DNA of 64,000 nt. Origin: a virus. The stretch spans positions 1 through 64,000 of IMG/VR virus record IMGVR_UViG_3300015241_000016; one strand, given 5' to 3'. Under the pieces are notes generated by a model. It was given only the letters and a program-made list of their open reading frames with translations, had not been told where the DNA came from and did not search any database. Shown in pieces: positions 7,522 to 63,115 of this stretch; the first letter of the stretch is position 1, and each line of letters starts with the position of its first letter. The position numbers and the translations under genes were made by a program.

Positions 7522-8193
7522 TTATTTATGAGCAATTAAAAGAAAAGCTAATACCCCTGCAATTCCTGTTCCCAGTTTCGCCCAAAGATCCGCTAATTTG
7601 GCCCTTTTTACCGCTTTGTTGGCAGCTTTAGCCTGAGCCGAAGCGTTATCGGTAGAAAGCGTGAGAAGTGTCTTGAATTGATCTATTTGTTTCCCCAATT
7701 CGATAATAACGACGTTCAGCCGGGCTATTTCTGCATCTTTGATGTTACCTATACTATCTTGCGCTATCTGTAAATTGAAGTTCTGTTGATTCAATTCGGT
7801 CCATTGATTCTTTAATTCAGTATATGCAGCTAAGAGTGCTACAGTATCTTTATTGTCGTAAAATTCTTTTAACTGCTTATATAAGATTACTACACTATCC
7901 TTAGTTATCTTGGTTTGCCCTTTTAAGATAGAAATTACATGAGATTGAGAGTCAATTTTATGCTTATACAAACTATCTCCAATCACCTTGGCCGTAATCA
8001 GGGAATCGTTTGATTTTGCTATGACAGTAGCGCGTCCTTTTATCGAATCATTTTTTTCCTTGTACGAATTAAGTGAATCTTGTATTATCTGAATACTTGA
8101 TCCCTTTCCGCATCCTTTGAAAATATAGAATACCAAGAAAATGGCACAAAGGATTACAATTCCACCAAATACCCATTTAGCTATTTTGCTCAT
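7522..8193 (-). CDS. Membrane-anchored coiled-coil protein, spanin-like
   Basis: 223 residues: N-terminal transmembrane helix (WVFGGIVILCAIFLVFYIF), a long Ser/Asp/Lys/Gln-rich coiled coil over most of the protein, and a second hydrophobic segment at the C-terminus (LGTGIAGVLAFLLIAHK). An inner-membrane protein with an extended periplasmic coil in a lysis block resembles i-spanins/Rz, but the C-terminal hydrophobic segment is atypical for Rz. It overlaps the holin-like gene by ATGA. Confidence 0.55.
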   Translation of the reverse strand: MSKIAKWVFGGIVILCAIFLVFYIFKGCGKGSSIQIIQDSLNSYKEKNDSIKGRATVIAKSNDSLITAKVIGDSLYKHKIDSQSHVISILKGQTKITKDSVVILYKQLKEFYDNKDTVALLAAYTELKNQWTELNQQNFNLQIAQDSIGNIKDAEIARLNVVIIELGKQIDQFKTLLTLSTDNASAQAKAANKAVKRAKLADLWAKLGTGIAGVLAFLLIAHK

Positions 8194-8740: not shown

Positions 8741-10414
8741 TTAATTCGCTATCAGCCGCTGTCCCGGGCTATATTGGATCACATTTGGAGGCAGCATAGT
8801 GAATGCAATTGTTACTGAATCACTTTTAAATCCATTGTCGGTTACTAATTCTTTAAATGAATATTGTCCCACAGGAAAGTTTTTTATTCTATTTGTTTTA
8901 CCAGATCTAATCCCTAAAGAAACTGATGTTCCTGACATTTGGGTTATTAAATATGACATCACAAATACGTCGTCTGTACTACCTGAAGCATCCCATACTA
9001 GATCATATCCATCCTGCCTTAAAGTTAATGCGGCTGTCGGCCCTGTGTTGGCAGGAATAGAATATGTATTGCAGGGAGTTCCGGAAGGATTTAGAATACA
9101 ATATGGGCTTGTACTTTGAATATAAGCTAAAGCAGGGTCTGGGAACTGTTGAGTAATCCAAGGAATAGACCAGGAATCTGGATATTGCGCTCCTATTCCT
9201 CCGTTCACTGGATTGGCCCCTATAATTCTATTTACTAACGGACCGAATTTATTTCTTCCCCAACTATAAAAATTTCCCAAGGAATCATTTCCATATGCAA
9301 ACCAACTATTAGAAGGGGCAGTATTAACGGACATCCAATCCCTTTTTCCGGGGACTGGCTCTACTGGCACTATCTGCATATGTTCATGAAACCCATTATC
9401 ATAGTTATATGGTGCCGGAGATCCAGAGCTGGGACCGGGACAACATTTATATGCTCCCCAATCCAACATGTCTCCATTGCCTATTGTCCCACAAGAATTG
9501 TCTCCCCATGACCACAAGGCTCCTGTCGTTAATATTGCATACGTGGTGGATGAATTTATCGATAATGATTTAGGGAATGCCGGCAGCCCCAATGCTGATG
9601 TAATATCCTGAAATGAGCGTGTCATTGCTGTTGGATAGATGGCTATATAATCGTTTAAGTTTTGCTGACCAGTTGCCAAAGTATGTCCATTATCCAGCAA
9701 TATTTCATTTATCAATCCATTCCCGGCAATGTCTGTTGCTGTTCGTCCTACTCCCAAAGAGATCAATGTTGGGGTGGTGGCTGCTGTGGTAGTTCCTTGC
9801 CCATTTATATAGCCGTCCCTATCGGCTCCCCATGTATATATATGGCCTAGTGAAGTCTTTGCAAGCATCCCATAACCACCTTGGATCTTTGTAACTAACT
9901 CTCCACCCACATTTATTTGCACCCATCTTGTATTAACCGCAGTGCCAGCCGTCCCATCTCCTATTACATAGGATTCAAGCTCTCCAGCCCCATAAAGTTT
10001 GCCTGTGCTTGTAACTGCAAAAACATTCCAGAAAGCTCCCTTATTTGCATTTCCACTAAGATAAACTTGTATAACAGGATCAAGCGTGCCACCTAAGTTA
10101 TCGGTCATGCATATGACAAAACTATTTTGATCTGTTTGTGTTCCATTTGGCACAACGCCATTTGGATTCTGCCCTTTGCAATATACGTTTCCTAAGTTGT
10201 CAATTAAACAAGCACTATGAGGCCCTCCAGCGACAAAAACAACATTGGTGGGGCTGGAAACAATCGTCGGTACAGCATTATCAATTGTATAAGCCCGATG
10301 TGTGGAAGTATTCAGCAATAAATTAACATATTCCCCCGGAGATCCTAACCATTGAGAGTATGTCTTATACGAAAGACAAATAAGAAAGAAGGATATGTAT
10401 AATATATACTTCAT
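8741..10414 (-). CDS. Exported RCC1-type beta-propeller protein with PKD-like C-terminus
   Basis: 557 residues. The N-terminus MKYILYISFFLICLSYKTYS is a Sec signal followed by Gln, matching the Bacteroidota Q-rule. At least five blades of the pattern GxxYxWGxNxxG follow (GHIYTWGADRDGYINGQG, GALWSWGDNSCGTIGNG, GNFYSWGRNKFG), as in RCC1 propellers. The C-terminus (LTLRQDGYDLVWDASGSTDD) resembles a PKD/Ig-like domain. RCC1 folds bind proteins or glycans. The position suggests a receptor-binding fibre component, but the export signal suggests secretion by the infected cell. Follows the HNH gene after 3 nt. Confidence 0.7.
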   Translation of the reverse strand: MKYILYISFFLICLSYKTYSQWLGSPGEYVNLLLNTSTHRAYTIDNAVPTIVSSPTNVVFVAGGPHSACLIDNLGNVYCKGQNPNGVVPNGTQTDQNSFVICMTDNLGGTLDPVIQVYLSGNANKGAFWNVFAVTSTGKLYGAGELESYVIGDGTAGTAVNTRWVQINVGGELVTKIQGGYGMLAKTSLGHIYTWGADRDGYINGQGTTTAATTPTLISLGVGRTATDIAGNGLINEILLDNGHTLATGQQNLNDYIAIYPTAMTRSFQDITSALGLPAFPKSLSINSSTTYAILTTGALWSWGDNSCGTIGNGDMLDWGAYKCCPGPSSGSPAPYNYDNGFHEHMQIVPVEPVPGKRDWMSVNTAPSNSWFAYGNDSLGNFYSWGRNKFGPLVNRIIGANPVNGGIGAQYPDSWSIPWITQQFPDPALAYIQSTSPYCILNPSGTPCNTYSIPANTGPTAALTLRQDGYDLVWDASGSTDDVFVMSYLITQMSGTSVSLGIRSGKTNRIKNFPVGQYSFKELVTDNGFKSDSVTIAFTMLPPNVIQYSPGQRLIAN

Positions 10415-10417
10415 TAA

Positions 10418-10969
10418 TTATGGGGACATAAATTTGTCAGCTATACCCTTGTATTTTTTCTTAGCTTTAACTAAATAAGTATCAGTATTTTTATGACATG
10501 CATTACAAAGAGTTCGTCCATTATTTACATTAAATCTTTCTTCAGGGAAATAAGCAAATGGTTTAATATGATCTGCCTCTAAATGGCCGGATACTTTTTC
10601 TTTTTCACCACAGATTAAGCAAGTATAGTTATCTCTTTCAAATACAGTCTTTCTCCAAATTTTATATTCTATAGATTTCCTAATTGTTTCATTTATTGAT
10701 GTTACTCCCCCTTTCCAATTAACATTCTTATCTCCTTTATGATGTATCCCTCTTTTTATTCTAGATTCTATAGAATATTTCTTTCCACTAGCAGCTTTAG
10801 ACATTTTTAAAATAGCTTCCGGAGTATGCCCGATATTATTGTGCCCTTTATTGTGTCCATGAATAAATATCCTTTTTCTTCCCCTGCTATCTGTTGAATT
10901 GAATTCATTATCGCATCCACAAGCACAAATAATAGTTATTCCTAAATTATGCGTTCTTTCCCTTCCCAT
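10418..10969 (-). CDS. HNH homing endonuclease
   Basis: 183 residues. The N-terminus has a Cys cluster (CACGCDNEF), followed by a basic NUMOD-like region (TPEAILKMSKAASGKK, IKRGIHHKGDKNVNW). A classical HNH core lies near residues 110-160: FERDNYTCLICG, LEADHIKPF with Asp133/His134, NGRTLCNACH. It would nick or cut DNA to spread itself. It sits exactly between two fibre-like genes, with 3 and 9 nt spacing, as free-standing homing endonucleases do. Confidence 0.88.
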   Translation of the reverse strand: MGRERTHNLGITIICACGCDNEFNSTDSRGRKRIFIHGHNKGHNNIGHTPEAILKMSKAASGKKYSIESRIKRGIHHKGDKNVNWKGGVTSINETIRKSIEYKIWRKTVFERDNYTCLICGEKEKVSGHLEADHIKPFAYFPEERFNVNNGRTLCNACHKNTDTYLVKAKKKYKGIADKFMSP

Positions 10970-10978
10970 TTTAAAAAA

Positions 10979-13900
10979 TTATGGAACCAAATTCCAATCA
11001 AATGAAACTGTACCTGTCAATCCGGCCAAATATGTCACATCAAAAGTTGTTGCTGTTTTATTAGTGACATAAAAAAGAGCAGCCGATAAAGCACTTGTTG
11101 GAGTAACATTTACTTTATAGGTACTATTTGATTCCGTTTTTCCAATTGTTACTGTAAACGTTGTAGTAGCTGTCCCAACCTGAGAAACACTTCCAGAAGC
11201 ATACCCTAAGTTAGATGCGCTTTCCAATATCCAATTAGTGCCATTATACACCAACGTATAGGTCACTCCATTGGGAATTGCTGTCACCGTATTCCCTAGA
11301 TTATCCTTCACCGTTGTTGCAAATGTCCAAGCGAATGCAGAAGTATTAGTATTGAAAATAGTCTGGGTATGGCCGGTATTTGTAAATGGTATAGTCAAGG
11401 TTCTATTGGCTGTTATTACAGGAAGGTAAACATTGAATGACCCTACGGAGACGGTGGTATTTGCATCTGTAGCTGTAAGTCCAGAATACTGAGGAGTCCC
11501 ATATAATGCCAATGTTCCTACAGGAGCCCCTATCGTTATATTGTCGTTTGATCTAATATCCACTTCCCCCAAATTACTCGCATTTGTTCCAAGTTCTAAT
11601 TTGAAAGATCCCCCTGCAATAGCCGTTGGCTGAATCAATGTTCCGCCCCAATAAATACTGTCAGTTGTTGGCGCTCTAAGACCATTGGCTACCTTTAAAT
11701 TGAATGTTCCGGATTTTCTATGCGTTTGCCCAGTTGTGGGGTCTACTGTTACGATACTATCATTCGCTCCTGAACTTGTCAACCCAGTCAGCAACGGTGT
11801 TGCTATAGACGGAGAAGTCCCAAATACCAATGGTCCAGTTCCCGTTTCATCAGATATGACTCCTAACAATTGTGCTGATGTAGTAGAAGCGAATTGCTGC
11901 AATCCTGTTAGTTTATCTGCTACTGTTATATTAGCGTCTGGGAAAGTGGCTGTTCTTGTAGTAGCTGTAGTAATAGAAGCAGCACTTAGGATAAGCAACT
12001 TGGTAGCATCTGAGTTGTTTTTAACTAATGCGGCATTATCCGCAAATGGAGGTGCGCTTCCAGCACCCGCATTAGCTCTATGCCAACTTCTTGTTGCAAC
12101 TGTATCTCTTATGGATGCAGAAGAATCTATTATCCAAAGTCCTGTATTGTATTGCATTTGTCCGGCTACAGGAGTAGTAGTCGGAGGTCCTGCTGTAAAT
12201 TGTATTGGCGCAAATCCTGCCGTGGCAGTTCCAGCCGAAAGTGTTAGCCACGCACTTCTGGTAGCATTTCCTATTGAAGTTTTGCCGTCGAATCCAACAG
12301 AAAATTTTGCGACATTAGCATTACATGCCTTAAAGAGAGGCATAGTGCTTACAGTTCCATTCACCGATAGTAATGCGCTGTAATAAGCTACATCAAAATC
12401 TGATCCAGGTGCGACGCTATATAACATTCCGGCTGCGGTTCCACTGGTTCCTTTATAATACCATACCGGATTCATATCAGTGAAATTCCCAGATAATGTC
12501 CCAAATGAAAGATGAGCCGCCGCATATCCAGTTTGTCGGTTATACAGATTAAAAAGTCCGCTAGAACTAGCTACTATTTCAGGACCACTAAATGCCAGAT
12601 TCATTGTAGAATAGCTCTGTCTTGCTTCTCCGCGCACTCTTCCGATTGGGACCAATAATATTTCTAAAGATGATCTTTGTTCTAAACTATCAAAATGGGC
12701 ATACTGAACTATAATATTTCCTTTTGTGGAATCATAGAATATTGACGGTTCAAAATAAGTACTGGCGCTATCTGATCCCAATAAACTGAATAGGGTTCTC
12801 CATTGATTTCCAAGACTAAGGGCATTATTTGGCTGATTAAAATCATAATCTTTAGTGCTAGTCAGTAAATCTAAATATTTTCTTTGTGATTGTTGAGTAG
12901 CCCCCCCCACAGCTTTATTTGCTACTCCTATCATCCAATGCTGTCCATCAATAACAGCTACAGCCGGTTGAGAATAAGGCGTAGGCATTCCCATATTATA
13001 AGAACCCGTCCATGTAGCTCCATTATCTATAGATTGTGCTCCCCACATTTCATATTGAACATTAGTAGAGAACCCATATCTAATAAATTCCCCCGCAGCC
13101 TGTGTATCGGGTGTACGTTGCACTATATACATTAAAGGTTCATTCACAACACTATCAGGTGATGTGAATATTTGTGCAGATAGAGTCCAAGTGACTCCAT
13201 TATCATCGGAATACATAAATCTTCCTCTAAAATAAGCCAATGACCGGTTAGTGATTTGCCCCAATGGAAAGAACAATCGACCAGTTAATTGAGATCTAAT
13301 AATCCTGTCACCGGAAGAATACCAATATGTACCCGATGCGCTTACTAGCGAATCTACGAATGTAAAATTATTTCCCCCATTCGTACTTTTCCATCGACAG
13401 ATAGTACTTTGTAATGGAGTGGTTAAATACTTATTGTTAGTGAAGCAATATATATTACCATTGCCATCATTGTACAGACTAGGAGTATTTGTATTTTGTG
13501 TAATATTCGGTATTCTTAATCTATTATTTACCCACGTTAGCCCATTATCTCCAGAGGTGGCTCCCCATATATTAGATGGCCCTACATCACTTACATTGGA
13601 AGTATTAGAATTAGAATATAAAATCAACAAGCTATCTTTGCTTAATCTAATTATTGAACTTTGGTCCATTCGCCAGTGATTATTTACTGTATCAATCGCT
13701 TGAACTACTATTTTCTTAATCACATAAGGTTCAATTTTATATTTTCTAACACCGCTAGTATCTGTTCCATATACTTGATAAGGTGGTGGAGTGGCAAGAT
13801 CATTAACCAATTGCAAAGGAGTTCCAGATGATCCATTTCCTGTTATTGAATTTTGAGAGGTAACCGTTCCAGATGGAGTAGGAATATTTAATACTCCCGC

Positions 13901-15139
13901 TACAATGGACGCCGCTCCCGATCCAGTAGTTGTCAAGGAAACATCCGCAGCATTCCCAGATCCATCGTATCCTAACAGGGTATTGGCTGTATTTGTAGCC
14001 ATTTTCCCAAGAGTAACGGCATTGTTAGCAATCTTCCCTGTAGTCACCGCAAGAGGTTGTATAGTTGCCACTGCTGCTCCCGGTCCTGCTGCTACTACAT
14101 CTGTTGTCAGAGAGGTTATATAGTTTCCAGTTGCCTGTTTCCCGGCCAAATCTGTCACCAGATTAGTAACTTGGCTTTCTGCTATTTGGATCGCAGTATT
14201 GGAAGCTGCTGTTATTAATCCTTTTGCATTTACAGTAAAAGAACCGACATTGGAAGCCGTTCCGAAAGAACCGATGTTGCCATTTACGGTTGCTAAAGTA
14301 AGCGGAAGATTGGTCCCAGAAACTGTACCTGTAGCATCTCCGGAAGCGGTAGCAAGATTCCCCGACGCTCCATTACCAGCTATAGTTAACTGTCCTGCTG
14401 CATTATAGGTAAGATTACAGTTTGTGCAAGATCCTGCTGTTATTACAGAAGCCAAAGTAACGGGTATCGAAGTGGTCCCACTACCCGTGGCCCCTCCTGA
14501 TAAAGTGATCGTTTGGTTTCCTGTTATATATCCCGGTCCATTTGTAAAAGAAGAAAGATTTGTAGGGAAAGTAGCCAAAGATAAATCTCCCCTAAAATAT
14601 TGAGAAGTTGATCCAGTTGTAATAGTAGGTTGTTTCCCAGCTAAATCGGTAACCAAATTTGTAACTTGCGCTTCCGGGATTTGAATGACTATAGAGCCAG
14701 CAGCAGTATTCAATCCCTTTCCATTTAAAGTTATCTGTGCTACATGTGAGGCATCTCCAAAAGAACCGGTATTTGTGTTAACGGTTGCCAAAGTTGCGAC
14801 TTGACTTCCAGTTCCGGGTCCGGCCAATACATCTCCTGTCAATTGATTAAGACCAGAACCTCCTGTTCCTCCTGAATTCTTCTTAATCCATTTATTTCCT
14901 ATTCTTGTCCACTCAACACTGTCAAATCCTGCGTGTAACCAAAGAATTGTAGTTCCTTGAAATTTTGGAATAAAGTTAGTATCTCTAAATGCTGGAATGT
15001 CCCCACTGTCTCTTTGAAGCCATCCAACACGATAATATCCTGTTGAATATGGGGCGGGTAATCCAGATGGAGCGGGTGGCTGCGCTTTCAAAGAAATACT
15101 TATCAATAAACAAAAAAATATTTTAAATAATAATTTCAT
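10979..15139 (-). CDS. Exported fibre-like protein with sialidase-type (BNR) propeller
   Basis: 1386 residues. Signal peptide MKLLFKIFFCLLISISLKA then Gln (Q-rule). Residues about 80-430 are low-complexity Gly/Thr/Ala/Ser modules with repeated ITLNGKGLNTAAGS- and VTNLVTDLAGKQ-type segments common in phage fibres. Residues about 470-860 form a propeller with four Asp-box motifs: SGDNGLTW (~529), STNGGNNF (~585), SDDNGVTW (~644), SIDNGATW (~703), the signature of sialidase/BNR glycosidase folds. The C-terminal 500 residues are again fibre repeats. It probably binds or cleaves a surface glycan; the catalytic residues of a true sialidase cannot be assigned by eye. Confidence 0.8.
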   Translation of the reverse strand: MKLLFKIFFCLLISISLKAQPPAPSGLPAPYSTGYYRVGWLQRDSGDIPAFRDTNFIPKFQGTTILWLHAGFDSVEWTRIGNKWIKKNSGGTGGSGLNQLTGDVLAGPGTGSQVATLATVNTNTGSFGDASHVAQITLNGKGLNTAAGSIVIQIPEAQVTNLVTDLAGKQPTITTGSTSQYFRGDLSLATFPTNLSSFTNGPGYITGNQTITLSGGATGSGTTSIPVTLASVITAGSCTNCNLTYNAAGQLTIAGNGASGNLATASGDATGTVSGTNLPLTLATVNGNIGSFGTASNVGSFTVNAKGLITAASNTAIQIAESQVTNLVTDLAGKQATGNYITSLTTDVVAAGPGAAVATIQPLAVTTGKIANNAVTLGKMATNTANTLLGYDGSGNAADVSLTTTGSGAASIVAGVLNIPTPSGTVTSQNSITGNGSSGTPLQLVNDLATPPPYQVYGTDTSGVRKYKIEPYVIKKIVVQAIDTVNNHWRMDQSSIIRLSKDSLLILYSNSNTSNVSDVGPSNIWGATSGDNGLTWVNNRLRIPNITQNTNTPSLYNDGNGNIYCFTNNKYLTTPLQSTICRWKSTNGGNNFTFVDSLVSASGTYWYSSGDRIIRSQLTGRLFFPLGQITNRSLAYFRGRFMYSDDNGVTWTLSAQIFTSPDSVVNEPLMYIVQRTPDTQAAGEFIRYGFSTNVQYEMWGAQSIDNGATWTGSYNMGMPTPYSQPAVAVIDGQHWMIGVANKAVGGATQQSQRKYLDLLTSTKDYDFNQPNNALSLGNQWRTLFSLLGSDSASTYFEPSIFYDSTKGNIIVQYAHFDSLEQRSSLEILLVPIGRVRGEARQSYSTMNLAFSGPEIVASSSGLFNLYNRQTGYAAAHLSFGTLSGNFTDMNPVWYYKGTSGTAAGMLYSVAPGSDFDVAYYSALLSVNGTVSTMPLFKACNANVAKFSVGFDGKTSIGNATRSAWLTLSAGTATAGFAPIQFTAGPPTTTPVAGQMQYNTGLWIIDSSASIRDTVATRSWHRANAGAGSAPPFADNAALVKNNSDATKLLILSAASITTATTRTATFPDANITVADKLTGLQQFASTTSAQLLGVISDETGTGPLVFGTSPSIATPLLTGLTSSGANDSIVTVDPTTGQTHRKSGTFNLKVANGLRAPTTDSIYWGGTLIQPTAIAGGSFKLELGTNASNLGEVDIRSNDNITIGAPVGTLALYGTPQYSGLTATDANTTVSVGSFNVYLPVITANRTLTIPFTNTGHTQTIFNTNTSAFAWTFATTVKDNLGNTVTAIPNGVTYTLVYNGTNWILESASNLGYASGSVSQVGTATTTFTVTIGKTESNSTYKVNVTPTSALSAALFYVTNKTATTFDVTYLAGLTGTVSFDWNLVP

Positions 15140-15142
15140 ATT

Positions 15143-17455
15143 TTAAAAATTTACCCATGCCGAACCATTATAGTAAGACATTTGATGTAATGTTAAGTCA
15201 TATACTTCCAATCCTTCGACAGGTGTTGAAATAGCTAATTTCTGAGTAGTGGTCATGGAGGGGGGCTTGAATCCTTGAGTTGTACTACTCATAAATAACT
15301 GAGCCGAAGGAGTAGCTGCTGTAGCGCCCATCCATATAGGTCCATTAAAATAATTAGCGGCTGTCCCGGAAATATTCAAATTAAATGAACCAGTTTTGGC
15401 CGATATTCTACCATCAAAACCCAATACAACCCCAAGACCTCCACTTCCTAAAGTCATATCATCACATATGTAGTGTGTGAATGTGTTTATATTAGTAAAC
15501 GTTCCTCCTTGGCTATAAAATCCAAAACCGTGTCCCATAGTTCCGACTGGATTGAATACATTAGTCCGGGAATAATATCCATTTAATATGTTCGTTCCTG
15601 CATCAATCTTTATCCCGGGCTGTATCCCTATCATATTCCTAGAGCCTTGCGTTGAAGCATGCTCCATAGTAATGTTTAACGCTATGAGATCGCCAGCTAT
15701 CGTGGAAGTATCAGGCAATTCTATGTTAAGACGCCCGTTTACGTCCAATTTAGATGTAGGTGTCGTGGTTCCTATACCTACAGAATCATTTGTTATGGTT
15801 GTGTAATTACCCGTTCTATTCCACGGACTCTGAACAATTGACCATCCGGTACGGGATGTTGGAGTATTTCCTGCTGTTTTTATATAAAAATTACCACCTG
15901 TCAAATCCATATAAGAATCTCCTACTTTTCCAGCAATATTTCCATTTGGCGTTCCCGATCCAGTATGAAAATTTTCTATAGTATTGTCAGTTGCGGAATC
16001 TTGGGAAGCTATAAAAAAACCACTTGTAGAATCAGGAAGTAAATTACAGCCTCTAATAAATCTATTTCTCTTTGATCCTCCATGAAAATTCAACAATTGG
16101 CTGCTAGGCGCTCCTTTTATAGTACAACCACTGAAAGTATTATCAATAGAGCTTCCAAAGTTCATTGCCAACGTCTTAGAAGAAGAGTAAAAATCCCCTG
16201 AAAAAGATCCATTAATAATATTGTCAACCTGCGTATAGGCGCTGTCTACCGGAATGCTATTATTAGAGGACTTATAATCTTTTTGAAATCCTAATTGAGG
16301 GCCAATGTCTACGCTATCTGTTACGGAAAAATGATCTACACTATTCCCGTATACATATCCTCCATTCCCTGTCCCACCAAAATTTTGGACAGTATATGGA
16401 AGGCATTTCTTTTTGCTGCCCGACATTTTCACATTAGAAATAATGCAATATTCTCCCTGAGCATTTTCTACGCCAATATCTTTTGCTCCTTTTATAACTA
16501 AATTCTGAACAATAACATATGAACAACTACCCAAACTGACAGCCATCCCATAAAGAGCTTTGCCGCCCAATTCATTAAAATTACAGTTCAATATTCGACC
16601 ATTTTTGACATATGGATTATGTCCATCCGATGCTTGAACTCCCAATACTTCAATAGCCATTCTCCCTACACTATCAAAAATGCAATCTTGAATATCCCAA
16701 TCCGTTAATACGCCTCCCTGCCCACCTCTCTGTCCTATAAGCACTATTCCATCCGCACAACTATATGGCGCTTTTATCAATAAATTATTAAAATGCAATC
16801 CCCTTGCAATTACTGCTGTAGTTGGAGCAAGTGTACTAAATTCGGAGATAACAGAAATTCCATTTGTATCCGGCCCATTGGATCTATCTAATACAAAATT
16901 ATTCTGCAATTTCATCGTAGATATTGTCACATTGGAGATGCTGTCTGTATGCAGATCAAATATCTTTGCGACTAAAGGATCACCAATAATAGCAGTCTTT
17001 ACTCTATCTAATCCTGTTATAGACACATTACTGGCCGTTAATGTAATCGTACTGCTGATCCTATAAGTTCCATATGGTAATTGCCAGCATGTGCCAGATA
17101 TATTAAATATCTGATTAAACAAAGGCGCATTATCCAGCACTCCCGTAGGATCTGCTCCGGCTGATAACACATTCAATGCCCCAGTCATATCTCTTACCCA
17201 TGCTCCTACCGAAGTCGATGGATTTTTGACTATAAATCCTGGAATTGGAGTAGCTGTAGAAGTGGCATCCCAACGAAATCTACCTCCACCCCCATCCCCC
17301 GGATTACGAAAACCTTGTGTTGTTATAGCCAATCCTGGCGCACCAACCCTTGTAGAAAGACTTGAAATATTCCGAAATGACAAAGAAGTCATATTATCTT
17401 GTGCCGATAATTTAATCGAAATAAGAATGAATAATATATATACTGTTTTTTTCAT
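15143..17455 (-). CDS. Exported beta-helix tail-spike-like protein
   Basis: 770 residues from the ATG at 17455, chosen over an ATG six codons upstream because it forms a TAATG overlap with the previous stop and starts a clean signal peptide (MKKTVYILFILISIKLSA, then Gln: Q-rule). Residues about 85-400 form a pectate-lyase-like right-handed beta-helix (DPTGVLDNAPLFNQIF, YGTYRISSTITL, VKNGRILNCNFNELGG). The C-terminus (GFKPPSMTTTQKLAI...LEVYDLTLHQMSYYNGSAW) is a tail-fibre ending frequent in Bacteroidota phages. Probably a polysaccharide-binding or depolymerising spike; the export signal is unexpected for a virion protein assembled in the cytoplasm. Confidence 0.8.
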   Translation of the reverse strand: MKKTVYILFILISIKLSAQDNMTSLSFRNISSLSTRVGAPGLAITTQGFRNPGDGGGGRFRWDATSTATPIPGFIVKNPSTSVGAWVRDMTGALNVLSAGADPTGVLDNAPLFNQIFNISGTCWQLPYGTYRISSTITLTASNVSITGLDRVKTAIIGDPLVAKIFDLHTDSISNVTISTMKLQNNFVLDRSNGPDTNGISVISEFSTLAPTTAVIARGLHFNNLLIKAPYSCADGIVLIGQRGGQGGVLTDWDIQDCIFDSVGRMAIEVLGVQASDGHNPYVKNGRILNCNFNELGGKALYGMAVSLGSCSYVIVQNLVIKGAKDIGVENAQGEYCIISNVKMSGSKKKCLPYTVQNFGGTGNGGYVYGNSVDHFSVTDSVDIGPQLGFQKDYKSSNNSIPVDSAYTQVDNIINGSFSGDFYSSSKTLAMNFGSSIDNTFSGCTIKGAPSSQLLNFHGGSKRNRFIRGCNLLPDSTSGFFIASQDSATDNTIENFHTGSGTPNGNIAGKVGDSYMDLTGGNFYIKTAGNTPTSRTGWSIVQSPWNRTGNYTTITNDSVGIGTTTPTSKLDVNGRLNIELPDTSTIAGDLIALNITMEHASTQGSRNMIGIQPGIKIDAGTNILNGYYSRTNVFNPVGTMGHGFGFYSQGGTFTNINTFTHYICDDMTLGSGGLGVVLGFDGRISAKTGSFNLNISGTAANYFNGPIWMGATAATPSAQLFMSSTTQGFKPPSMTTTQKLAISTPVEGLEVYDLTLHQMSYYNGSAWVNF

Positions 17456-18129
17456 TATGCTCTTGCCGACCAATAAATAATGACATTCCCGGCTCCTAAA
17501 GGAGGTGCTGCTCCATAATTAACATAAATATTTGTTGCATCTGCGGTCCTGCTAGCTATTCCAACTGCATCCGAACTTCCAGCATCGGCGCTTATAAAAC
17601 TTGGGGTAGTTCCTAAACCATGAGGGATAATAAATTGCAATTGTGTACCTGTACCGCTCTGAATAGAATTTCCTGAATTATATCCAGAAGGTACTATTGG
17701 AACGCTTCCTGATCCTATGTAGGCATAATAAACACCATAAGTCTGATTATTTGAAACTCCTTGATTAAAGGCAATCACTATATCATTGGTATTATAGGCA
17801 ATTGTATAGCTTATTTGAGTATTATCAGACTGAGGTAAGACGGCTCCATCTAAAACGACAAAAGCACTGAATTGTACTATATTGGTTTGGTTAATGGTCA
17901 GGACAGTTTCTCCGGCTGCCAAAGGTGATCCAGACTGCCCTATCTTAAATTGAAGTAACCCAAATTTTAGAGATCCCAATATGCAAGCCTTAACATCAGC
18001 CCATACTCTCCGTCCATATTGTCCTAATCCTAATCCGCCCACGGCATTACCTACTAAAAAGTATTCGCTATCTGTTGGGCATCCTGTAAGTAATGGTAGG
18101 CCCGACGCCTCCTGATCGCAATCTGCCAT
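17455..18129 (-). CDS. Fibre/appendage structural protein
   Basis: 224 residues without a signal peptide. The N-terminus (MADCDQEASGLPLLTGCPTD) with WADVKACILGSLKF resembles attachment segments of fibres in Bacteroidota phages. The rest is beta-rich (FKIGQSGSPLAAGETVLTI, YGVYYAYIGSGSVP) ending in a phage-fibre-like sandwich (QLQFIIPHGLGTTPSFISADAG...VIIYWSARA). Its stop overlaps the next start (TAATG). Likely an adaptor or short fibre. Confidence 0.6.
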   Translation of the reverse strand: MADCDQEASGLPLLTGCPTDSEYFLVGNAVGGLGLGQYGRRVWADVKACILGSLKFGLLQFKIGQSGSPLAAGETVLTINQTNIVQFSAFVVLDGAVLPQSDNTQISYTIAYNTNDIVIAFNQGVSNNQTYGVYYAYIGSGSVPIVPSGYNSGNSIQSGTGTQLQFIIPHGLGTTPSFISADAGSSDAVGIASRTADATNIYVNYGAAPPLGAGNVIIYWSARA

Positions 18130-18135
18130 GATACT

Positions 18136-18279
18136 TTAATTAAGATTTATATTACATCCATTAAAAGTCAATCCACATCCATTCATCAAAATAATACACT
18201 TCCTTACTGGATTTATTTCTCCCAAAACAAGATTACACCCATTCAATTGAAGGTTACACCCATTTACCAGAATAATACA
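18136..18279 (-). repeat. Imperfect tandem duplication encoding Cys/Asn heptads
   Basis: Two diverged copies of about 60 nt, offset by 81 nt, encode the paired three-heptad blocks of the 134-aa protein. Conserved DNA cores include TTACA(T/C)CCATT and CCA(T/G)(C/A)AAATAATACA-like segments on the plus strand. Substitutions keep Cys, Asn and Gly in place, indicating selection on the protein pattern. Confidence 0.6.
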
Positions 18280-18540
18280 AAGCGTTGGGCAGCACTGACA
18301 GGAAACACCCCTATATTGATTGAAGTCACTTAAAGATTTGAATTGGGTACTTCCAAACGAATGGTTATTATATTCTATTACGAAAACACGTTTGGCTATA
18401 ATACCCAAATCCTCGTCAAAACTTCTTACTATTGACACACCAATGGGAGTTACTTTGTCGCAAGGAAAATTGAAAACCCCTTGAACCGACTGTATTTCCC
18501 CATCTATTGTATCTGCAATAAATTGTATTGACTTTGACAC
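18136..18540 (-). CDS. Protein with C-terminal Cys-Asn-Gly heptad repeats
   Basis: 134 residues. Residues 1-75 form a small alpha/beta domain (SIQFIADTIDGEIQSVQG...VFVIEYNNHSFGSTQFKSL). After a Cys cluster (SCQCCPTLC) the C-terminus consists of two blocks of three heptads, CIILVNG-CNLQLNG-CNLVLG (88-107) and CIILMNG-CGLTFNG-CNINLN (115-134), with Cys every seven residues. It lies 86 nt downstream of the ATP-grasp gene and 6 nt upstream of a fibre gene. It could be a tiny beta-solenoid appendage, or a substrate for the adjacent peptide-modifying operon. No family recognised. Confidence 0.65.
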   Translation of the reverse strand: MSKSIQFIADTIDGEIQSVQGVFNFPCDKVTPIGVSIVRSFDEDLGIIAKRVFVIEYNNHSFGSTQFKSLSDFNQYRGVSCQCCPTLCIILVNGCNLQLNGCNLVLGEINPVRKCIILMNGCGLTFNGCNINLN

Positions 18541-18626: not shown

Positions 18627-19880
18627 TTAAATGAAGGCAATACCAGCCTTGTTTAATTTTTCAAGGGATTTCTTCGCTTTATCAAGAGAGTCTGTTTTTA
18701 TGTGAGTATCGAAGCCCTGAATTGAATTGGCAACTTCTTTCGCATTTTTAACTGCCTCTTCCATTGAATTACCTAATCCAACAACACTTCCTATATCATT
18801 CTCTTTCATTTCTCCCGGAGTATAGTACCAAGTTCCATCATCATCTATGCTGAGATTGGATATTTTTACAAAATCCTTATACTCATCAGGAACAATTATG
18901 GGTGATGGTCTTGTTTCTGAAATATCAGATTTTATTATCAATTGGCATCCCCATTTATATTTAAATTCTATATTTGGTATTCTCCCATGTGCAACATCCC
19001 ACACTATTTCTGAATAATTAGTATATGCCTCTAAGGCAAGAGATGTATTAGGCTGTGGACATCTGTTTGTGTTATCAATTAAAAAGCCTCTTTTATCCTT
19101 AGAAATAATTATTTCGTTGGAATAATGACCACGGTATCCCATATCATTAAATATAGAAGAAAATCCGTCATTAACTGATCTAATTTGTTCTGGCAATAAT
19201 TTATAATAAGTAAAAGTGCCAACATAACAGCAATTTTTTACTTCAATGCCACATAGGGAAATGTCAGGATACTGTCCATCAATACAAAACCCATCGTATC
19301 CTATTTCTGCAACGGTTTCTATTGGATGCTCTATAATGTATATTTCTCTATTCTCATATAATCCCATATCATGACGTAATCTTATTAATTCTCTTTTTGA
19401 TAATCGATAATCCTTATGCTCCCATGTCTCCATATCGCCTCTTAGTGAAGATTTTATATATCTACTGCCTTTGGAATTCATTAATATTTGTTCCAATTCA
19501 TCTAACCCATTTGCAATGGAATATAACCCTACTGGCAACCCTAAATTTTTTAATGTCTCTTTTATAAAAGATCGATCATGTTCTAGTCTATCAGCAAACA
19601 CACTACCAAAAACTGGTTTACCTATACTTCTAATATAATTTTGTAAATTAGGCTCTTGGGACGATGTGAAGTAAACCATATCTACTTCATTGATGACAGA
19701 AGCCCATTCTTTAACTTTCACAATCCCCAGCACATTTCGACCAATATCAAATGGAGTATGTTCAGGGAATCCATCTATTGTATAAGGGCAGTAATAATAT
19801 ACTGTTCCGAAGTCTCTACTTAGTCTTTGAGCTACTTCTATATAGCTCATATAATCATATACCAATACACTTTTATCCAT
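18627..19880 (-). CDS. ATP-grasp ligase (PurD/carboxylase-like), putative amidoligase
   Basis: 417 residues from the ATG at 19880, which forms a TAATG overlap with the peptidase stop; an ATG five codons upstream is less likely. An N-terminal Rossmann-like pre-ATP-grasp domain (VLVYDYMSYIEVAQRL...VFGSVFADRLEHDRSF) is followed by ATP-grasp elements: RYIKSS (nucleotide Lys), IEHPIETVAEIGYDGF (~184-198), and GYRGHYSNEIIISKDKRGF with LIDNTNRCPQPNTS (~248-280), giving the acidic/Asn metal ligands and Arg. This family joins a carboxylate to an amine through an acyl phosphate. Coupled with a GNAT and a C39-like peptidase, it probably builds or modifies a peptide. The substrate is unknown. Confidence 0.8.
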   Translation of the reverse strand: MDKSVLVYDYMSYIEVAQRLSRDFGTVYYYCPYTIDGFPEHTPFDIGRNVLGIVKVKEWASVINEVDMVYFTSSQEPNLQNYIRSIGKPVFGSVFADRLEHDRSFIKETLKNLGLPVGLYSIANGLDELEQILMNSKGSRYIKSSLRGDMETWEHKDYRLSKRELIRLRHDMGLYENREIYIIEHPIETVAEIGYDGFCIDGQYPDISLCGIEVKNCCYVGTFTYYKLLPEQIRSVNDGFSSIFNDMGYRGHYSNEIIISKDKRGFLIDNTNRCPQPNTSLALEAYTNYSEIVWDVAHGRIPNIEFKYKWGCQLIIKSDISETRPSPIIVPDEYKDFVKISNLSIDDDGTWYYTPGEMKENDIGSVVGLGNSMEEAVKNAKEVANSIQGFDTHIKTDSLDKAKKSLEKLNKAGIAFI

Positions 19881-20332
19881 TAGATCATTCCGCATACATC
19901 ATTTATTTTTGAAGGTTGAATAAACCACCCTTTACCGTATCGTTCACTATACCAATTCTTTTCAAGCAACTCACAATCCAATGTTTCTATTTCTCCGGTC
20001 GCTGGATTATATATAGTAAAGAATCCGTTCCCCTGACCTAATACAACTGAATAATGCCCCTCTTTCCCTTCTTCGTCCTCGTATTGATAATTTATAATTG
20101 CTGGCAAAAACTCCTGTAAAGAAGATATATGTGAATCGTACCAAGATACCCATTTAAAATTAAAATGAGATAGACCTTTCCTTATCCCATCATGGCTAGT
20201 GCCATCCTGTTCAGTCGTTCCCATTATTATTTCTAATTCTTCAGGAGTAACATGAACAGAATATAACCCCAAAAGGAAACGTAAGGCATATACCCCACAA
20301 TTATATTCTTTATTTTGTTTTTGTGGAATCAT
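19880..20332 (-). CDS. C39-like cysteine peptidase
   Basis: 150 residues with the papain-like C39 layout: Cys12 in YNCGVYALRFLL, His93 in EGHYSVVLG and Asn109 in IYNPATGEIETLD. The length fits a stand-alone C39-like domain without an ABC transporter. Such enzymes cleave or transfer peptides, classically after double-Gly leaders. It overlaps the GNAT stop by ATGA and the ATP-grasp start by TAATG, so all three should be made together. Alternatives are a peptidoglycan peptidase or a deconjugating enzyme that reverses ATP-grasp products. Confidence 0.78.
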   Translation of the reverse strand: MIPQKQNKEYNCGVYALRFLLGLYSVHVTPEELEIIMGTTEQDGTSHDGIRKGLSHFNFKWVSWYDSHISSLQEFLPAIINYQYEDEEGKEGHYSVVLGQGNGFFTIYNPATGEIETLDCELLEKNWYSERYGKGWFIQPSKINDVCGMI

Positions 20333-20826
20333 AGACTTTGCAGGTAAAGATTATATTGCTCACCTTCTCCGTACCAATTTTCGAACTTTTCAATGACTTT
20401 GGCTCCAAAAAATTCCTGCAATTTAAGGCTTACCCCATCTCTTGCATGACCTAATGCAAATTCATACCCTTTTTCTTTCCATAAACCTAAGCAGTAAGCC
20501 TTCAATATTTTTCCGTAGCCTTTATTTTGGTAATCCGGCAAAATGGTAGTGCTAAACGCATAAATACAATTTTTTCCATACCAATCGGTCAGACCATCTT
20601 CTAGTTGCTCTTCGTCTGCCGCCCAATCCTTCATGGTATCCAATGGCAGATAATAAGCCTCTCCGATCAATGCCCCGGATTCTCCATCCACCATGTAAAT
20701 AAACTTAGCACCATCGTCTTTTAACTCCTGCTTACTTTCTAAATCCCATTGAAGATTTTCTGGATAAACACTTTCGAAGATTACGCTGTCTTCAAGAGAA
20801 ACATTACTAGTAAATTTTATTTTCAT
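20329..20826 (-). CDS. GNAT-family N-acetyltransferase
   Basis: 165 residues. The GNAT acetyl-CoA site is visible: strand FSTTILPDY followed by QNKGYGKILK (100-109) fits Q/RxxGxG/A, and LKLQEFFGAKVIEKFE is the usual C-terminal part. It would transfer an acyl group from acyl-CoA to an amine, perhaps of a peptide or amino sugar. First gene of the coupled trio, 9 nt after the lysozyme-like gene. Confidence 0.82.
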   Translation of the reverse strand: MKIKFTSNVSLEDSVIFESVYPENLQWDLESKQELKDDGAKFIYMVDGESGALIGEAYYLPLDTMKDWAADEEQLEDGLTDWYGKNCIYAFSTTILPDYQNKGYGKILKAYCLGLWKEKGYEFALGHARDGVSLKLQEFFGAKVIEKFENWYGEGEQYNLYLQSL

Positions 20827-20835
20827 ATATTTATT

Positions 20836-22215
20836 TTAAAAGTGACCTTCATCCTTAAGAGCCGAAGCCATATAGATTCTGGGGGCCACGTGTGCCCAAA
20901 TATCATCTTTAGAATCTATTTTTTCTCCTTTGTGTGGGTGTTCTTTTAAAAACTTATCATCCTTCAAAAGACCTTCTTCATTATATTTTTTCAATAACTT
21001 TTTAACCCCGCCTTCCCCACCATTAAAAAAAACTAATGAAAAAAAATCTTCTGCTTTTTTTGACAACTTAATGCCTTTCTCGGAAGCTTCCTTGTTAACA
21101 TAATCCTTTCCGAATTTCATTAAGGCTGCCTTTGCTTTCATGCCATCTTCTACTGTTTTAAAATCATTTTCACTAAATTCCCCTGCATTCTTTTTTCCTC
21201 TAAACTTTGACGCAAATTCTTTTGGCAAATAGCCTCCGGAGACTAATTCTGGAAATCTATTGGCAAAGTCAGGGACTCCCATACTTTCATTCCCATTTAT
21301 AGGAAAGTCTTTATCTCCATAAAATGCCTGATAACCGAATTCTCCCGGTTTTTTGTGCCGTGTATCCAATCCTGATTTATCTTTGAAAAGCGCACTTGCC
21401 CCTTCCTGCATGGCACTTGAATATAATAAAGCAGGATCAATACCATATTCTTTAGCGGCTTTTACTGAAATGTTTTTCATAGTATCCGATCCGCCCCGGG
21501 GAACTTCATTTACTTTTAAAACCGTATCCCCTCTCCCTTCTAAATCTCCGTATTTTTTTGACCAGTTTTTCAAATAATTAACTCTTGATGCGGTATCGTT
21601 ATAATTAGGCAACGGTATCCTATCGCCTTCCCCATCCTTCAACTTTTCTGGCCCCTCCTTTTTAGGATCTTCTTTAACTACTTCTTTTGTCTTTCCTGTA
21701 GAATCAGAGACGGGGAGGGTTGAAAAATCTTTCATGTACGATTCGACATCAGTTCCATAGTTTTTATCTCCTTTTTTAAACTCAGGATAGTATTGCCTGG
21801 ACATTCCAGAATTTAAAGGTGTCCCCGGTTCTGATGTCTCTCTTTTTACATAATCAGAACTTAACTGTTTTCTTAATATCCTCGTCTGTTCAGGCGACAT
21901 GCCAGCGAATGACTCCCCTGATCTTAATTGTTGATGCTCATATTGGACATTTTGGATCATGTCAGCATTGACAGTAGTATTTGGGTTCTCCTTGCGATAC
22001 TTTTCAAGATACGAAGCTCCTGCATTTTGATCGGTTTTATCCAAATCCTTTGACCCCGCCACGCCATCTTTCTGCATAGCATCCAGAAAATTATTCCAGT
22101 CCTTTCGTTGCACTGCCGTAGTAGGCTTATACCCTTTAGGTTTAGTATCCTTCTTTTTGGGGCCTTCTCCTCCTCCATCTCCTTCAGGACTATATAATTT
22201 AATGATTCTCATCAT
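20836..22215 (-). CDS. Virion-associated lysozyme/transglycosylase-like protein
   Basis: 459 residues. Residues 1-190 are low-complexity and charged (SPEGDGGGEGPKKKDTKPK). The C-terminal half (AKEYGIDPALLYSSAMQEGASALFKD onwards) resembles SLT/lysozyme-like domains in which the Glu after a helix is catalytic, and includes FFSLVFFNGGEGGVKKLLKKYN. It is encoded with internal proteins rather than the lysis block, so a virion enzyme that opens the wall at entry is more likely than an endolysin. Assignment is by pattern only. Confidence 0.55.
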   Translation of the reverse strand: MMRIIKLYSPEGDGGGEGPKKKDTKPKGYKPTTAVQRKDWNNFLDAMQKDGVAGSKDLDKTDQNAGASYLEKYRKENPNTTVNADMIQNVQYEHQQLRSGESFAGMSPEQTRILRKQLSSDYVKRETSEPGTPLNSGMSRQYYPEFKKGDKNYGTDVESYMKDFSTLPVSDSTGKTKEVVKEDPKKEGPEKLKDGEGDRIPLPNYNDTASRVNYLKNWSKKYGDLEGRGDTVLKVNEVPRGGSDTMKNISVKAAKEYGIDPALLYSSAMQEGASALFKDKSGLDTRHKKPGEFGYQAFYGDKDFPINGNESMGVPDFANRFPELVSGGYLPKEFASKFRGKKNAGEFSENDFKTVEDGMKAKAALMKFGKDYVNKEASEKGIKLSKKAEDFFSLVFFNGGEGGVKKLLKKYNEEGLLKDDKFLKEHPHKGEKIDSKDDIWAHVAPRIYMASALKDEGHF

Positions 22216-33731: not shown

Positions 33732-34181
33732 TTAATTCATTTCTTCTTCAAAAAAGAGTGGTGGAAACAATATCCGATCTTCAATCTTTTTGACTGCCTT
33801 ATCAAGAGCCTCTTGACTGCTATCCTCTGGTTGTTCCTCTGGTAAAATAGCATGTGTGGTTGTCCAAATACATTCCTCTTTTATAACTAGGATTCGCCGC
33901 GTCCCTGGCTTCGTAACCCCTAAAAAAGGAGCCTCTAAGATATTCCACTCATTATCCGTTTTAACTGATACAACACCTTTGAAAATATTGAAGGGGTGCT
34001 CTGTCTTATGGACTCTACTTACAATAACTGAATCAACCGGCATAATGATCCCCCTGACATAAATACCCGGAGTAAATAGATGAATCCATTTGCAATCTGC
34101 TTCATCCATCTCTCTAAGAGTTAATTCCAACGCATCTACTGAGCTTGAAATATTAGGCAATATGTCTTTAATTTCTTCCAT
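33732..34181 (-). CDS. Cupin-like phage structural protein
   Basis: 149 residues. IHLFTPGIYVRGIIMPVDSVIVSRVHKTEHPFNIFKGVVSV and APFLGVTKPGTRRILVIKEECIWTTTH (shown in part) follow the double-stranded beta-helix pattern of a small phage cupin family, including the His residues that often bind metal. The acidic C-terminus is helical. Its location between tail-barrel and internal proteins suggests a minor virion component. It shares a base overlap with the endonuclease gene upstream. Confidence 0.55.
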   Translation of the reverse strand: MEEIKDILPNISSSVDALELTLREMDEADCKWIHLFTPGIYVRGIIMPVDSVIVSRVHKTEHPFNIFKGVVSVKTDNEWNILEAPFLGVTKPGTRRILVIKEECIWTTTHAILPEEQPEDSSQEALDKAVKKIEDRILFPPLFFEEEMN

Positions 34182-34987
34182 TAATTAATATTCATTATAA
34201 AAAATGAATTTTCATTATATGAATCTTTAATATTTCCCATATAATACCTATAAGCATCTGAAAAAGAATGTTTTTTCAAATATTTACGCAAACCGCTCGT
34301 CTTTATATTGAATTTAAAAGACCACTCAATCAGGTTCATATATAAACCATTATATTCTATTTTAATATTTAGTCTATTTTTAGTTGTAAAGGATTTTTCA
34401 AAACTCCATCCCCGATGACGCCTTAGCTTTACTAAATTGCTCGGTATTTTCAGTTCTTCGCACCATGAACTTAATGTTTGTGTTTTGTTTTTATAGGTAA
34501 CCAATATATTATTACTCTTATTATTATTCTGTTCTTTTGGAGTAGCCCATCGACAATTATTTGGTTCGTAGTTGCCATTGTTATCCGGATATCTATCTAA
34601 AGAATGATTTGATGTCGGCCTTAATCCCATATCCTCGAAGAAATTTTCGAAAGATTCAATCCACCGATCGCAAACTGTAATTCCCCTACCACCCCATTCA
34701 TCATATCTGTCAAAATCCTTATTGTAACACCGGCCTTTCATTCTTACCCACGTATTATGCTCTGCGGTATGAGACATTCCATGCTTAGTTCTACCACACC
34801 CACACGTTTTTGTCTTGCCGGCTTTTGCTTGCCACATTCTCGTATTAAAAATCTTACCACATTCACATTTAAAATCTGCAAATCTACTTAAATGACCCAT
34901 ATTCCCATCTCCCTTTAATTGATCATTCCCCAGATAGATTAAAAATCCAACGCGATCCCCTATTTTATATGATATTTTTTTACCCAT
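34181..34987 (-). CDS. YGGRGI-type putative homing endonuclease (copy 1)
   Basis: 268 residues from the ATG at 34987 (MGKKISYKIGDRVGFLIYLG), chosen because it starts after the preceding stop. An N-terminal zinc-binding module (CECGKIFNTR...KTCGCGRTKHG) precedes the core NTWVRMKGRCYN, WGGRGITVCDRW, MGLRPTSNHSLDRYPDNNG and NCRWATPKEQNNNKSN, then a C-terminal helix-turn-helix-like region. The core recurs in the genes at 46299 and 59651. The conserved His/Asp/Asn/Arg-Trp set resembles His-Me finger nucleases, so a free-standing homing endonuclease is the best guess. Confidence 0.7.
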   Translation of the reverse strand: MGKKISYKIGDRVGFLIYLGNDQLKGDGNMGHLSRFADFKCECGKIFNTRMWQAKAGKTKTCGCGRTKHGMSHTAEHNTWVRMKGRCYNKDFDRYDEWGGRGITVCDRWIESFENFFEDMGLRPTSNHSLDRYPDNNGNYEPNNCRWATPKEQNNNKSNNILVTYKNKTQTLSSWCEELKIPSNLVKLRRHRGWSFEKSFTTKNRLNIKIEYNGLYMNLIEWSFKFNIKTSGLRKYLKKHSFSDAYRYYMGNIKDSYNENSFFIMNIN

Positions 34988-34992
34988 AAAGA

Positions 34993-35343
34993 TCAAAAAA
35001 GATAATCCTTTTGCCACAAATTGCTGATTATGAAGGTACTAATTTGTGATGATATTTCAATCAATTTTTCTTTAAAAGCTGGCCTAAGGACAAACTGACC
35101 TATAGCTACGTTTTTTGTTTCCGGATTAACAATTAGCGTAAAATATCCGCTCAAATTACCATCTGAATTATTAACAGTGTATGGCAGCACATTGGCCGTC
35201 ACTAAAGATACCTGAGAGTCGGTATATTGCTTAATAACCACACCTATTTGATTCTTTATTTGAGGAATAGATGCCCTCGAATCGATAAGAACACCGGGGA
35301 TCATTCGGTTGAACTCCTGACAATATCTGAATTTATAACTCAT
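34993..35343 (-). CDS. 116-aa tail/connector-associated protein
   Basis: 116 residues, mixed alpha/beta with a hydrophobic, aromatic C-terminus (FIISNLWQKDYLF). Its start overlaps the stop of the tail-barrel gene by ATGA, so they are co-translated and probably part of the same particle. Not recognised. Confidence 0.5.
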   Translation of the reverse strand: MSYKFRYCQEFNRMIPGVLIDSRASIPQIKNQIGVVIKQYTDSQVSLVTANVLPYTVNNSDGNLSGYFTLIVNPETKNVAIGQFVLRPAFKEKLIEISSQISTFIISNLWQKDYLF

Positions 35344-43260: not shown

Positions 43261-46200
43261 TTAGCATCCCGTCAAACTCCATATTATTGTTATCGAATCA
43301 GAACTTAAATAAGAATCTGATGGGAATGAATATGTTCCAGATCCAAAAGTATTTACAGAATGAGTGAACACATTATTCTTGTAAAGACATAAAGTAGCCG
43401 CAGATCCATTGCTTACTTGCACATTAATTGCTCCTGTAAATGCAGATGAATGAGTACCGAAATAATCATTTCCGGGTGTTAAAGATCCCGGAAGAGCAAA
43501 TCCAGGTATGCCGGTTATGGCTAAAATATTACCAGTCCCAGAACTTGTATTATTGAATGCAACTACTAGATTAGACCCTCCACAATTACTTCCTGTCGAT
43601 GAAATTACTACCCCTGTCGATGAATTAAGATTATAAATAACTCCATCTGATATATTTTCTATAAACGTATACCCAGTAACAGGAGTGGACAATGAACTAT
43701 CTATATACATAGTCTGACCAATGGCAAATCCTCCATTAGTATACAATGTTATTCCCGGAGCAGAGCATATCGTACCAGAACTAGTATCCAATCTGAAAGC
43801 TCCTGCCGTTCCAGCAGAACAGTTGTTGCCGGTATTACCACCTACCACAGCAGTTCCGGAATTGATATTATATATCTGGCCGCCAGATGCTATAAATAAA
43901 TGCCCTGACGCAAGAATGGTTAATCCGAGATCGGTATACATAGTAACGCCTGTTCCGAATGGTGCGCTAGAATACAAGGTCACAGGGGAATCCCCGCATA
44001 TAGCATATATCACACTATCCACTAAGAAAGGTCCACTATATACAGTTGAGGATGGGACTAATACCTGCCCAACAAATCCAACACCTCCGCAGTTATTTGT
44101 TATAAATATGTCATATGTTGAGCCGGGCATAAGACCGGTAATCACATAGGGAGGGCTGGCTGCCACATTTCCGCTTGGAGAAATTAATAAACTGCTTGTG
44201 GATATGATATAAGACGGATTACTATGTAATTTATACCTTACTGTAACTGTCTGTGAAGCAGCAGGGGTAGTAGTAAATCCTACTCCATATATACCTATAT
44301 TAGTTCCGGAGACTATACCTGAATTGATTGATGTAATATCTGGACATGTGCCGGGAATCGTACAATCAATGGCACAATAAGCAGATTTTACGTCACTATA
44401 CGTATTGATAGCAGCGATGATCCCAAGAGCAGCCTGACGACCCGTAAGTTGGGTACAATTACCCCCGACAGATGCCATATACCAATCTGTGGTATTATTA
44501 AATGCGGCAGTCGGATTGCTGGCAAAAATAGCTTGTATTTTTGAACACGTAATCCCAGTTAATGTATTTATTCTATTTACGATATTACAAATAGCCGTAG
44601 CAATTCCGGAATTATAAACCCCCTGAGACACTGGATTTAGTCCTGTTCCTGTGTATGTTGTAGTAAAAACATTGCCGTTATAATCAAATTGGCATAATGT
44701 TAAATTAGCTCCTAAGGCAACCTGCAATGCTGTAATACCGCAAAATTTATCTATAATAGCCTGTAATACCTGAACAAGTGTTGCATTGGTGGACGAAAAC
44801 TGGACCGTCAAATCTGGACCAGTAAAAGATATAGTAGAAACTGTGTTTGGATTCGAATTAGTTTGAACCAAAAGGACAAGACTGTTAATGGACACCGAAA
44901 AAGTCCCTAAGGTGAGGCTATTTAACCAACTGGCAATACCAGATACATTGGTAGCCAATAAGCCTCCCGGAGCCGTGTATGTAGCTCCATTAATGACTAT
45001 GTTAGATATCAAGGTAGAGCTATTCACCAATTGAGTAATCGTATAGTCCGATTGCGTAAGGTCAATGATACACTTCCCATCAAGTCCTTGAATACTTCCC
45101 CCTCCTGATCCTGTAATAAGAGAATTTAAAAAGGTAACCAGTGTAGGATTACCGGCAATGGTATTCAATATGGTAGTTGAAAGTTGCGTGTAATTAAAAG
45201 ATAATTTATATTTAGTAACACCTGATACGCTATTGTCAAGAGTGATGGAAAAAGATGTGTCACTTGGATCGCCCTTTACGACTTGATATATATTAGAAGA
45301 AACTGTGAATGTTTTTGTACTTCCAGACTGAGAAGGAGTAACCGTTGTTCCATTAATCCCCGTCACTACGATACTATATACAGACGGATTTGTCGGGTTC
45401 ATCTCATTTTGATGAATGGATTTTACACCACAATCACAGTTCAATATTTTTTTGATCAATTCGGCTTCTGTAGAGGCATCTTGACCATTTATTTCCTTGT
45501 TAATCCCCATGAACAAGGGAATGGAAATATCCTGTAATAATTGCTTGGCATTAGCTCCTTTAGCATTATCACAATTACGTAAATATTCACTTTGTACGGA
45601 TTCTATGCAGCACATCAAATCTCCCATCCTGTCTGTACAGGTAACATCGAATGGTGATGCCGTCAAATATGTTACGTCCACGTATATATCGTCTCCTAAA
45701 TTATACTCTCCGACTGTAGTACAATTTATTCTATATGATCCAGTATAAATTACATTGTTGGAGAATGGAGTGCTAGTAAATGTAATGGGATCGACTGTCC
45801 CAACAGGATATGAAAGAGTTCCCGTTTTAGTTACGACATAAGGTGTTTGATTATTATAGACCAATAACGTCAACTCCTTTATGGTTAACGTATTATTTGA
45901 ACAATCAGATATTAATTGAAACAATCCGGGAACAAATCCTCCATCCGTTACACCAATAGGCTGGCAAACTTTTTTATAAATAGGAGTAGTTTGGTAAATA
46001 GATCCATTTGCATCTTTAATGGCCCCAATAATCTGATATTTCTGAAATAAAAATGCGAAATTAACGTTACTTAAATCAAGAGAATACGTTGTAGTAGTGC
46101 TTGGATTTGGTATCTGAGGGGCCGTAAAATCAATGGCAGATAATATCACTCCGTCTTGATCAATTAGAGAGAAACTAACGCCTAGTGTAGATCCCCCACC

Positions 46201-60340: not shown

Positions 60341-60349
60341 ATGCCATAA

Positions 60350-60997: not shown

Positions 60998-61000
60998 AAT

Positions 61001-62394: not shown

Positions 62395-62525
62395 AACCAG
62401 TGGAGGTAGAAACTTTCCGATTCCCTTTGAAGGCGTTTATTTTTAACTAAAAGTGTTGCTGAAATTCATGTTTTAATTTGCTTTACTCAAACCGAAAGTA
62501 AATACTATTATAGAATCGACCAAAT

Positions 62526-63107: not shown

Positions 63108-63115
63108 TTTTTATT

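Follow-up and report, generated by a model that had tools for sequence, protein, structure and literature searches.

Export signals on three fibre-like proteins

For the fibres of tailed phages, folding and assembly are taken to be cytoplasmic. Three large fibre-like proteins encoded in the window, a 64-kb stretch within a 78,565-bp virus record, begin with what look like Sec signal peptides. This raises the question of whether these proteins leave the cytoplasm, and where they would then act.

All three genes lie on the minus strand. Protein A (557 aa, 8741..10414) carries an RCC1-type propeller (Pfam RCC1_2, 2e-11; WD40_RLD, 5e-18) and a PKD-like region for which the match was weak. Protein B (1386 aa, 10979..15139) contains fibre repeats and a sialidase-type BNR propeller (BNR_2, 1.4e-8). 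Protein C (770 aa, 15143..17455) ends in a fibre C-terminal module and resembles known phages in its last 65 residues only; it gave no Pfam match, and its body was judged by eye to be a beta-helix-like tailspike. With the predicted cleavage site given as a slash, the N-termini read MKYILYISFFLICLSYKTYS/QWLGS for A (20-aa signal, 10355..10414, TYS/Q), MKLLFKIFFCLLISISLKA/QPPAP for B (19 aa, 15083..15139, LKA/Q) and MKKTVYILFILISIKLSA/QDNMT for C (18 aa, 17402..17455, LSA/Q), all on the minus strand. The preliminary description of a Sec signal followed by Gln in each protein was thus accurate, as was its placing of the start of C, which is fixed by an ATG within TAATG that overlaps the stop of the upstream 224-aa gene. 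It had also called the three genes consecutive. They are neighbours in one cassette, but A and B are not strictly consecutive because an ORF of 183 aa (10418..10969, minus strand), labelled HNH-endonuclease-like from its sequence, lies between them. The first 100 codons of A and B hold no alternative ATG. Mis-annotated starts were considered as a source of the signals and rejected, since the starts of A, B and C are all constrained.

The cassette proteins follow the Bacteroidota Q-rule for Sec and signal peptidase I substrates, with a positive n-region, a hydrophobic core, a small residue at -1 and Gln at +1. We scored signal plus Gln +1 with a home-made, rule-based detector in four syntenic genomes. 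It was present in 10 of the 11 proteins of the cassettes and in 4 of the 451 remaining ORFs (Fisher p~1e-16). Among proteins of at least 300 aa the figures were 10/10 and 1/71. Shuffled N-termini were positive in 0.35% of cases and spurious overlapping ORFs in 1 of 431. Signal-bearing proteins outside the cassette lie at 73131-74864 (lipoprotein-like by eye), 76310-76702 and 79764-80000 of relative G003 and at 11872-12576 of relative G002.

Conservation of the signals in related phages

Searches of IMG/VR with the capsid and hub proteins yielded three syntenic records, G001 (102,001 bp), G002 (78,142 bp) and G003 (80,291 bp), whose capsids are 54-78% and hubs 42-54% identical to those of the window's phage. 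Each has fibre-like genes at the same site, flanked by two conserved small late genes on one side and by the lysis region on the other, and the bodies of these proteins mostly differ. In the window, the small late proteins are one of 224 aa (17455..18129, minus strand), which adjoins the cassette upstream in all four phages and is a possible adaptor, and a Cys-rich one of 134 aa (18136..18540, minus strand; 39-47% identity in G001-G003); both are conserved and carry no signal. Downstream of the cassette lies a gene for an inner-membrane-spanin-like protein of 223 aa with an N-terminal TM segment (7522..8193, minus strand). Across the phages the cassette modules include BNR, GDSL-esterase, arabinofuranosidase-like and beta-helix types, with conserved N-termini and variable bodies; B, for example, has an N-terminal domain in common with G002 (33% identity over the first 90 aa). 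The cassette has the modular fibre-type bodies and the late structural operon position of tailed-phage fibres and tailspikes. Directly upstream of the cassette region, a 422-aa protein (18627-19895) is 49-53% conserved in all four phages and belongs to no Pfam family.

Three more contigs (L055, L056 and L057) came from searching with the RCC1 pair, so that six other uncultured phages have signal-bearing cassettes. In these contigs the RCC1 proteins and the adjoining 1700-aa fibres begin with signals, two of which were judged by eye because the start given by the ORF caller was too far upstream or the n-region was long. One 634-aa protein of L055 has a signal without Gln. A distant hub was found in L055 and none was detected in L056 and L057.

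The preliminary description would have been undone by relatives starting downstream of the signals. Instead, signals are kept at the syntenic site in the four phages and in the three further contigs. Signal-bearing relatives of A occur in G003 (34% identity), L055 (76%) and L056 (30%). Between A and its L055 relative, the signal is identical at 6 of 17 positions (35%) and the mature part at 419 of 537 (78%), and the mature start Q-W-x-G-S-P is retained (QWLGSPGEYV and QWIGSPGEYV). Likewise, the first fibres of G001 and G003 have the mature Gln in the same alignment column (Q-x-F-x-x-P-R-S-x-S-S), while their signals differ. A diverged signal in front of a kept mature start is expected from selection for export and not for a particular sequence.

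These data bear on two other explanations. As the signal prediction is rule-based, the hydrophobic N-termini might have arisen by chance, come from misplaced starts or be uncleaved virion anchors, but the detector statistics, the constrained starts, the almost invariable Gln at +1 and the presence of signals in all relatives make this very improbable. The other explanation is that secreted host adhesin genes were captured, signal included, and fused to fibre modules, so that the signals were simply inherited. Secreted proteins of bacteria often contain RCC1, PKD and BNR domains, and a weak RCC1 match was found on a Hymenobacter plasmid. However, a pattern-limited search of GTDB genomes did not find the mature N-terminal domain, and plasmid searches gave no close bacterial homologue. 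Moreover, signals were kept in at least seven phages despite swapped bodies, which argues that they are maintained and not only inherited. We regard host capture as unlikely; of the interpretations put forward earlier, export gained support from the conserved signals and from the sequon described below, while capture found none in these limited searches. Pattern-limited searches of GTDB genomes for the hub and for the fibre N-terminal domain turned up no host or prophage, and searches of a phage collection with capsid and fibre proteins returned no close cultured relative.

Distribution of the O-glycosylation sequon

Periplasmic O-glycosylation in Bacteroidota takes place on non-cytoplasmic proteins at D[ST] when the next residue is L, I, V, T, A, S or M; S is preferred to T and E is rarely tolerated (PMC12871550). 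According to the same review, the sequon is enriched in nearly all families, though not in all species (PMC12871550). We counted D[ST][AILVMT] and derived the expectation from shuffles. This test was exploratory, as the motif was tried once the export signals had been noticed; the replication in three further phages came later and used new data.

The mature cassette proteins of the four phages contain 74 sequons where shuffles give 30.4, an enrichment of 2.43x (z 9.2); B has 11 sequons and C has 7. The reversed motif (0.97x) and the E variant (0.46x) served as controls. After D[ST] in the cassette, L, V, I and A are favoured, G is rare, F and D do not occur, and S is used over T, matching the published pattern (PMC12871550). 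None of the listed 7-mer contexts of the cassette sequons recurs. In the same four phages, enrichment was 4.09x in other Q-rule proteins and 4.32x in proteins with an N-terminal TM segment (home-made cut-off) or a non-Q signal, including the spanin-like ones, whereas 262 proteins without an N-terminal hydrophobic segment gave 0.93x. The replication showed the same trend, with 80 sequons versus 28.4 in the fibres of L055, L056 and L057 (2.82x, z 10.1), 5.69x in their TM proteins and 0.43x in the others. One exception is a 329-aa structural-operon protein of G003, which is sequon-rich without a signal. Within the phages, the correlation between sequon and compartment is strong. Spanin-like proteins with 5-8 sequons each were seen at 7522-8193 of the window (7 sequons), 18665-19438 of G001, 9956-10627 of L055 and 9003-9656 of L056.

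Outside this group, the sequon was enriched 3.27x in proteins that four cultured phages of Bacteroidota export. The ratio was 0.86x in unexported fibres of cultured relatives and about 1.1x in exported proteins encoded by lambda and by 50 kb of E. coli. As bacterial controls, secreted proteins were sampled from five Bacteroidota genera through their plasmid records. No general enrichment was seen in those of Hymenobacter (1.04x), Spirosoma (1.10x) and Parabacteroides (0.44x), and Runella gave 2.0x from three proteins. The link between this marker and glycosylation therefore rests on the phage proteins and the literature. In Persicobacter (CP012852, 400001-750000; L041, L044-L049), Q-rule proteins were depleted in the sequon (0.39x, z -5.4), which suggests avoidance.

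Beta turns favour D-S/T-hydrophobic. This, together with the bacterial controls, would fit an enrichment that reflects fold or composition and not glycosylation. Yet the enrichment is missing in unexported fibres and present in TM and spanin proteins, the reversed and E variants are not enriched, the next-residue preference is that of published glycosites, and exported proteins of lambda and E. coli show none. Fold or composition is thus an improbable source of the enrichment in these data, and we infer that the phage pattern probably means glycosylation. Like the general O-glycoproteins of Bacteroidota, the cassette proteins have the D[ST][L/I/V/T/A/M] sequon, a preference for S over T, a disfavoured E and a predicted non-cytoplasmic location; unlike them, they are phage-encoded and their glycosylation is predicted from sequence (PMC12871550). 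Among open-licence papers, nothing was found that combines phage, O-glycosylation and Bacteroidota. In phages of Bacteroidota, the sequon seems to mark a protein's compartment from sequence alone, and it could be used on large metagenomic phage sets.

Comparison with cultured phages and other Q-rule proteins

With the same detector, no signal was found on the fibres of crAss001, phi38:1, elemovirus and Panino, nor on the metagenomic phage fibre with which B has a module in common. The Crassvirales-like fibres and spikes are likewise large, modular, beta-rich late proteins, but they lack both signal peptides and sequon enrichment. The terminase of the window's phage has distant matches to elemovirus, Panino and phi38:1 (22-30%). 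Profile comparisons with the crAss001 capsid, portal and stabilization proteins were negative, the muzzle match was sub-threshold, and capsid, portal and hub are not recognisably crAss001-like. When solved structures were searched by sequence, A matched RCC1/HERC2 relatives only, and the searches with B, C, hub, portal and capsid gave nothing of use. The predicted structure of A, from a two-sequence alignment, had a mean pLDDT of 27.6 and no usable fold.

Phages of P. gingivalis (Nixviridae) are reported to carry genes for five Q-rule proteins whose function is unknown (PMC10367356). Like the cassette proteins, these come from phage genes and are substrates of signal peptidase I with a +1 Gln, for which host general secretion was proposed; they are presented there as function-unknown genes and not as fibre-like (PMC10367356). 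The DGR proteins of Bacteroides phages are reported to be without signals (PMC6199706).

A proposed route through the periplasm

Export of the cassette is well supported by the conserved signals, with the sequon as an independent compartment marker. We propose, with a probability of roughly 0.7, that the cassette encodes exported, periplasm-matured and glycosylated fibre- or tailspike-like proteins that act extracellularly on surface glycans. By sequence this is based on the signals and their conservation, the sequon enrichment, the late-operon position and the absence of a T9SS domain; cleavage, glycosylation, a periplasmic pool and docking are inferred.

The modular proteins would be made late in infection and exported by Sec. 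Host signal peptidase I would then cleave the signal and expose the Gln, for which pyroglutamate is expected. Folding would follow in the periplasm, where the general system of the host would also O-glycosylate D[ST]hydrophobic sites; signal and sequon both point to arrival in this compartment and to probable glycosylation within it. A T9SS sorting domain (TIGR04183/PF18962) was found in none of the cassette proteins scanned, a set that leaves out G002 18842-21193, while a control protein was positive. Release at lysis, with a stay in the periplasm until then, is therefore likely, and the pool would persist until the adjacent phage lysis genes break the envelope. Once released, the propeller, beta-helix or esterase modules would act on surface glycans, probably by binding or cleavage.

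Whether the released proteins would attach to new virions, at lysis or later, and serve as receptor-binding fibres or would act as free proteins is a guess at about even odds, the two being about equally likely. Taken by itself, the reading that they are exported and never enter virions falls somewhat short of an even chance. Such free adhesins or glycan-active enzymes might mask receptors, clear capsule or debris for progeny escape, or exclude superinfecting phage. The export evidence and the glycan-active modules (BNR, GDSL, arabinofuranosidase-like) fit this, as do the signal-less fibres of cultured relatives, which are presumably on virions, and a 1018-aa protein without a signal (43261-46317) that could be the receptor-binding protein instead of the cassette. 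It is harder to reconcile with the classic fibre repeats, the module in common with an unexported phage tail fibre, the several very large proteins per phage, their late-operon position, and the conserved N-terminal domain in front of variable bodies.

The periplasmic route proposed here implies a second way of fibre maturation, since an export signal across the fibre cassette coincides with a host O-glycosylation motif. In contrast to the ordinary tail fibres of phages, the cassette proteins of this group of uncultured Bacteroidota viruses apparently mature beyond the cytoplasm, and as adhesins they would wear the host's own sugars. In its strongest form, which we put forward tentatively as it has perhaps a one-in-three chance, the lineage would build its receptor-binding fibres outside the cytoplasm, exported, dressed in host glycans and folded in the periplasm, and these would join virions only at lysis.

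Two other regions of the window were noted. Upstream of the terminase, 58666-63805 holds a glycosyltransferase-like gene, a GT2 gene and an FkbM methyltransferase gene; the cluster is partly conserved in relatives and might modify host or fibre glycans. Three related ORFs among the late genes (34181-35017, 46299-46946 and 59651-60340) all match one ORF of G001 and are possibly homing endonucleases.
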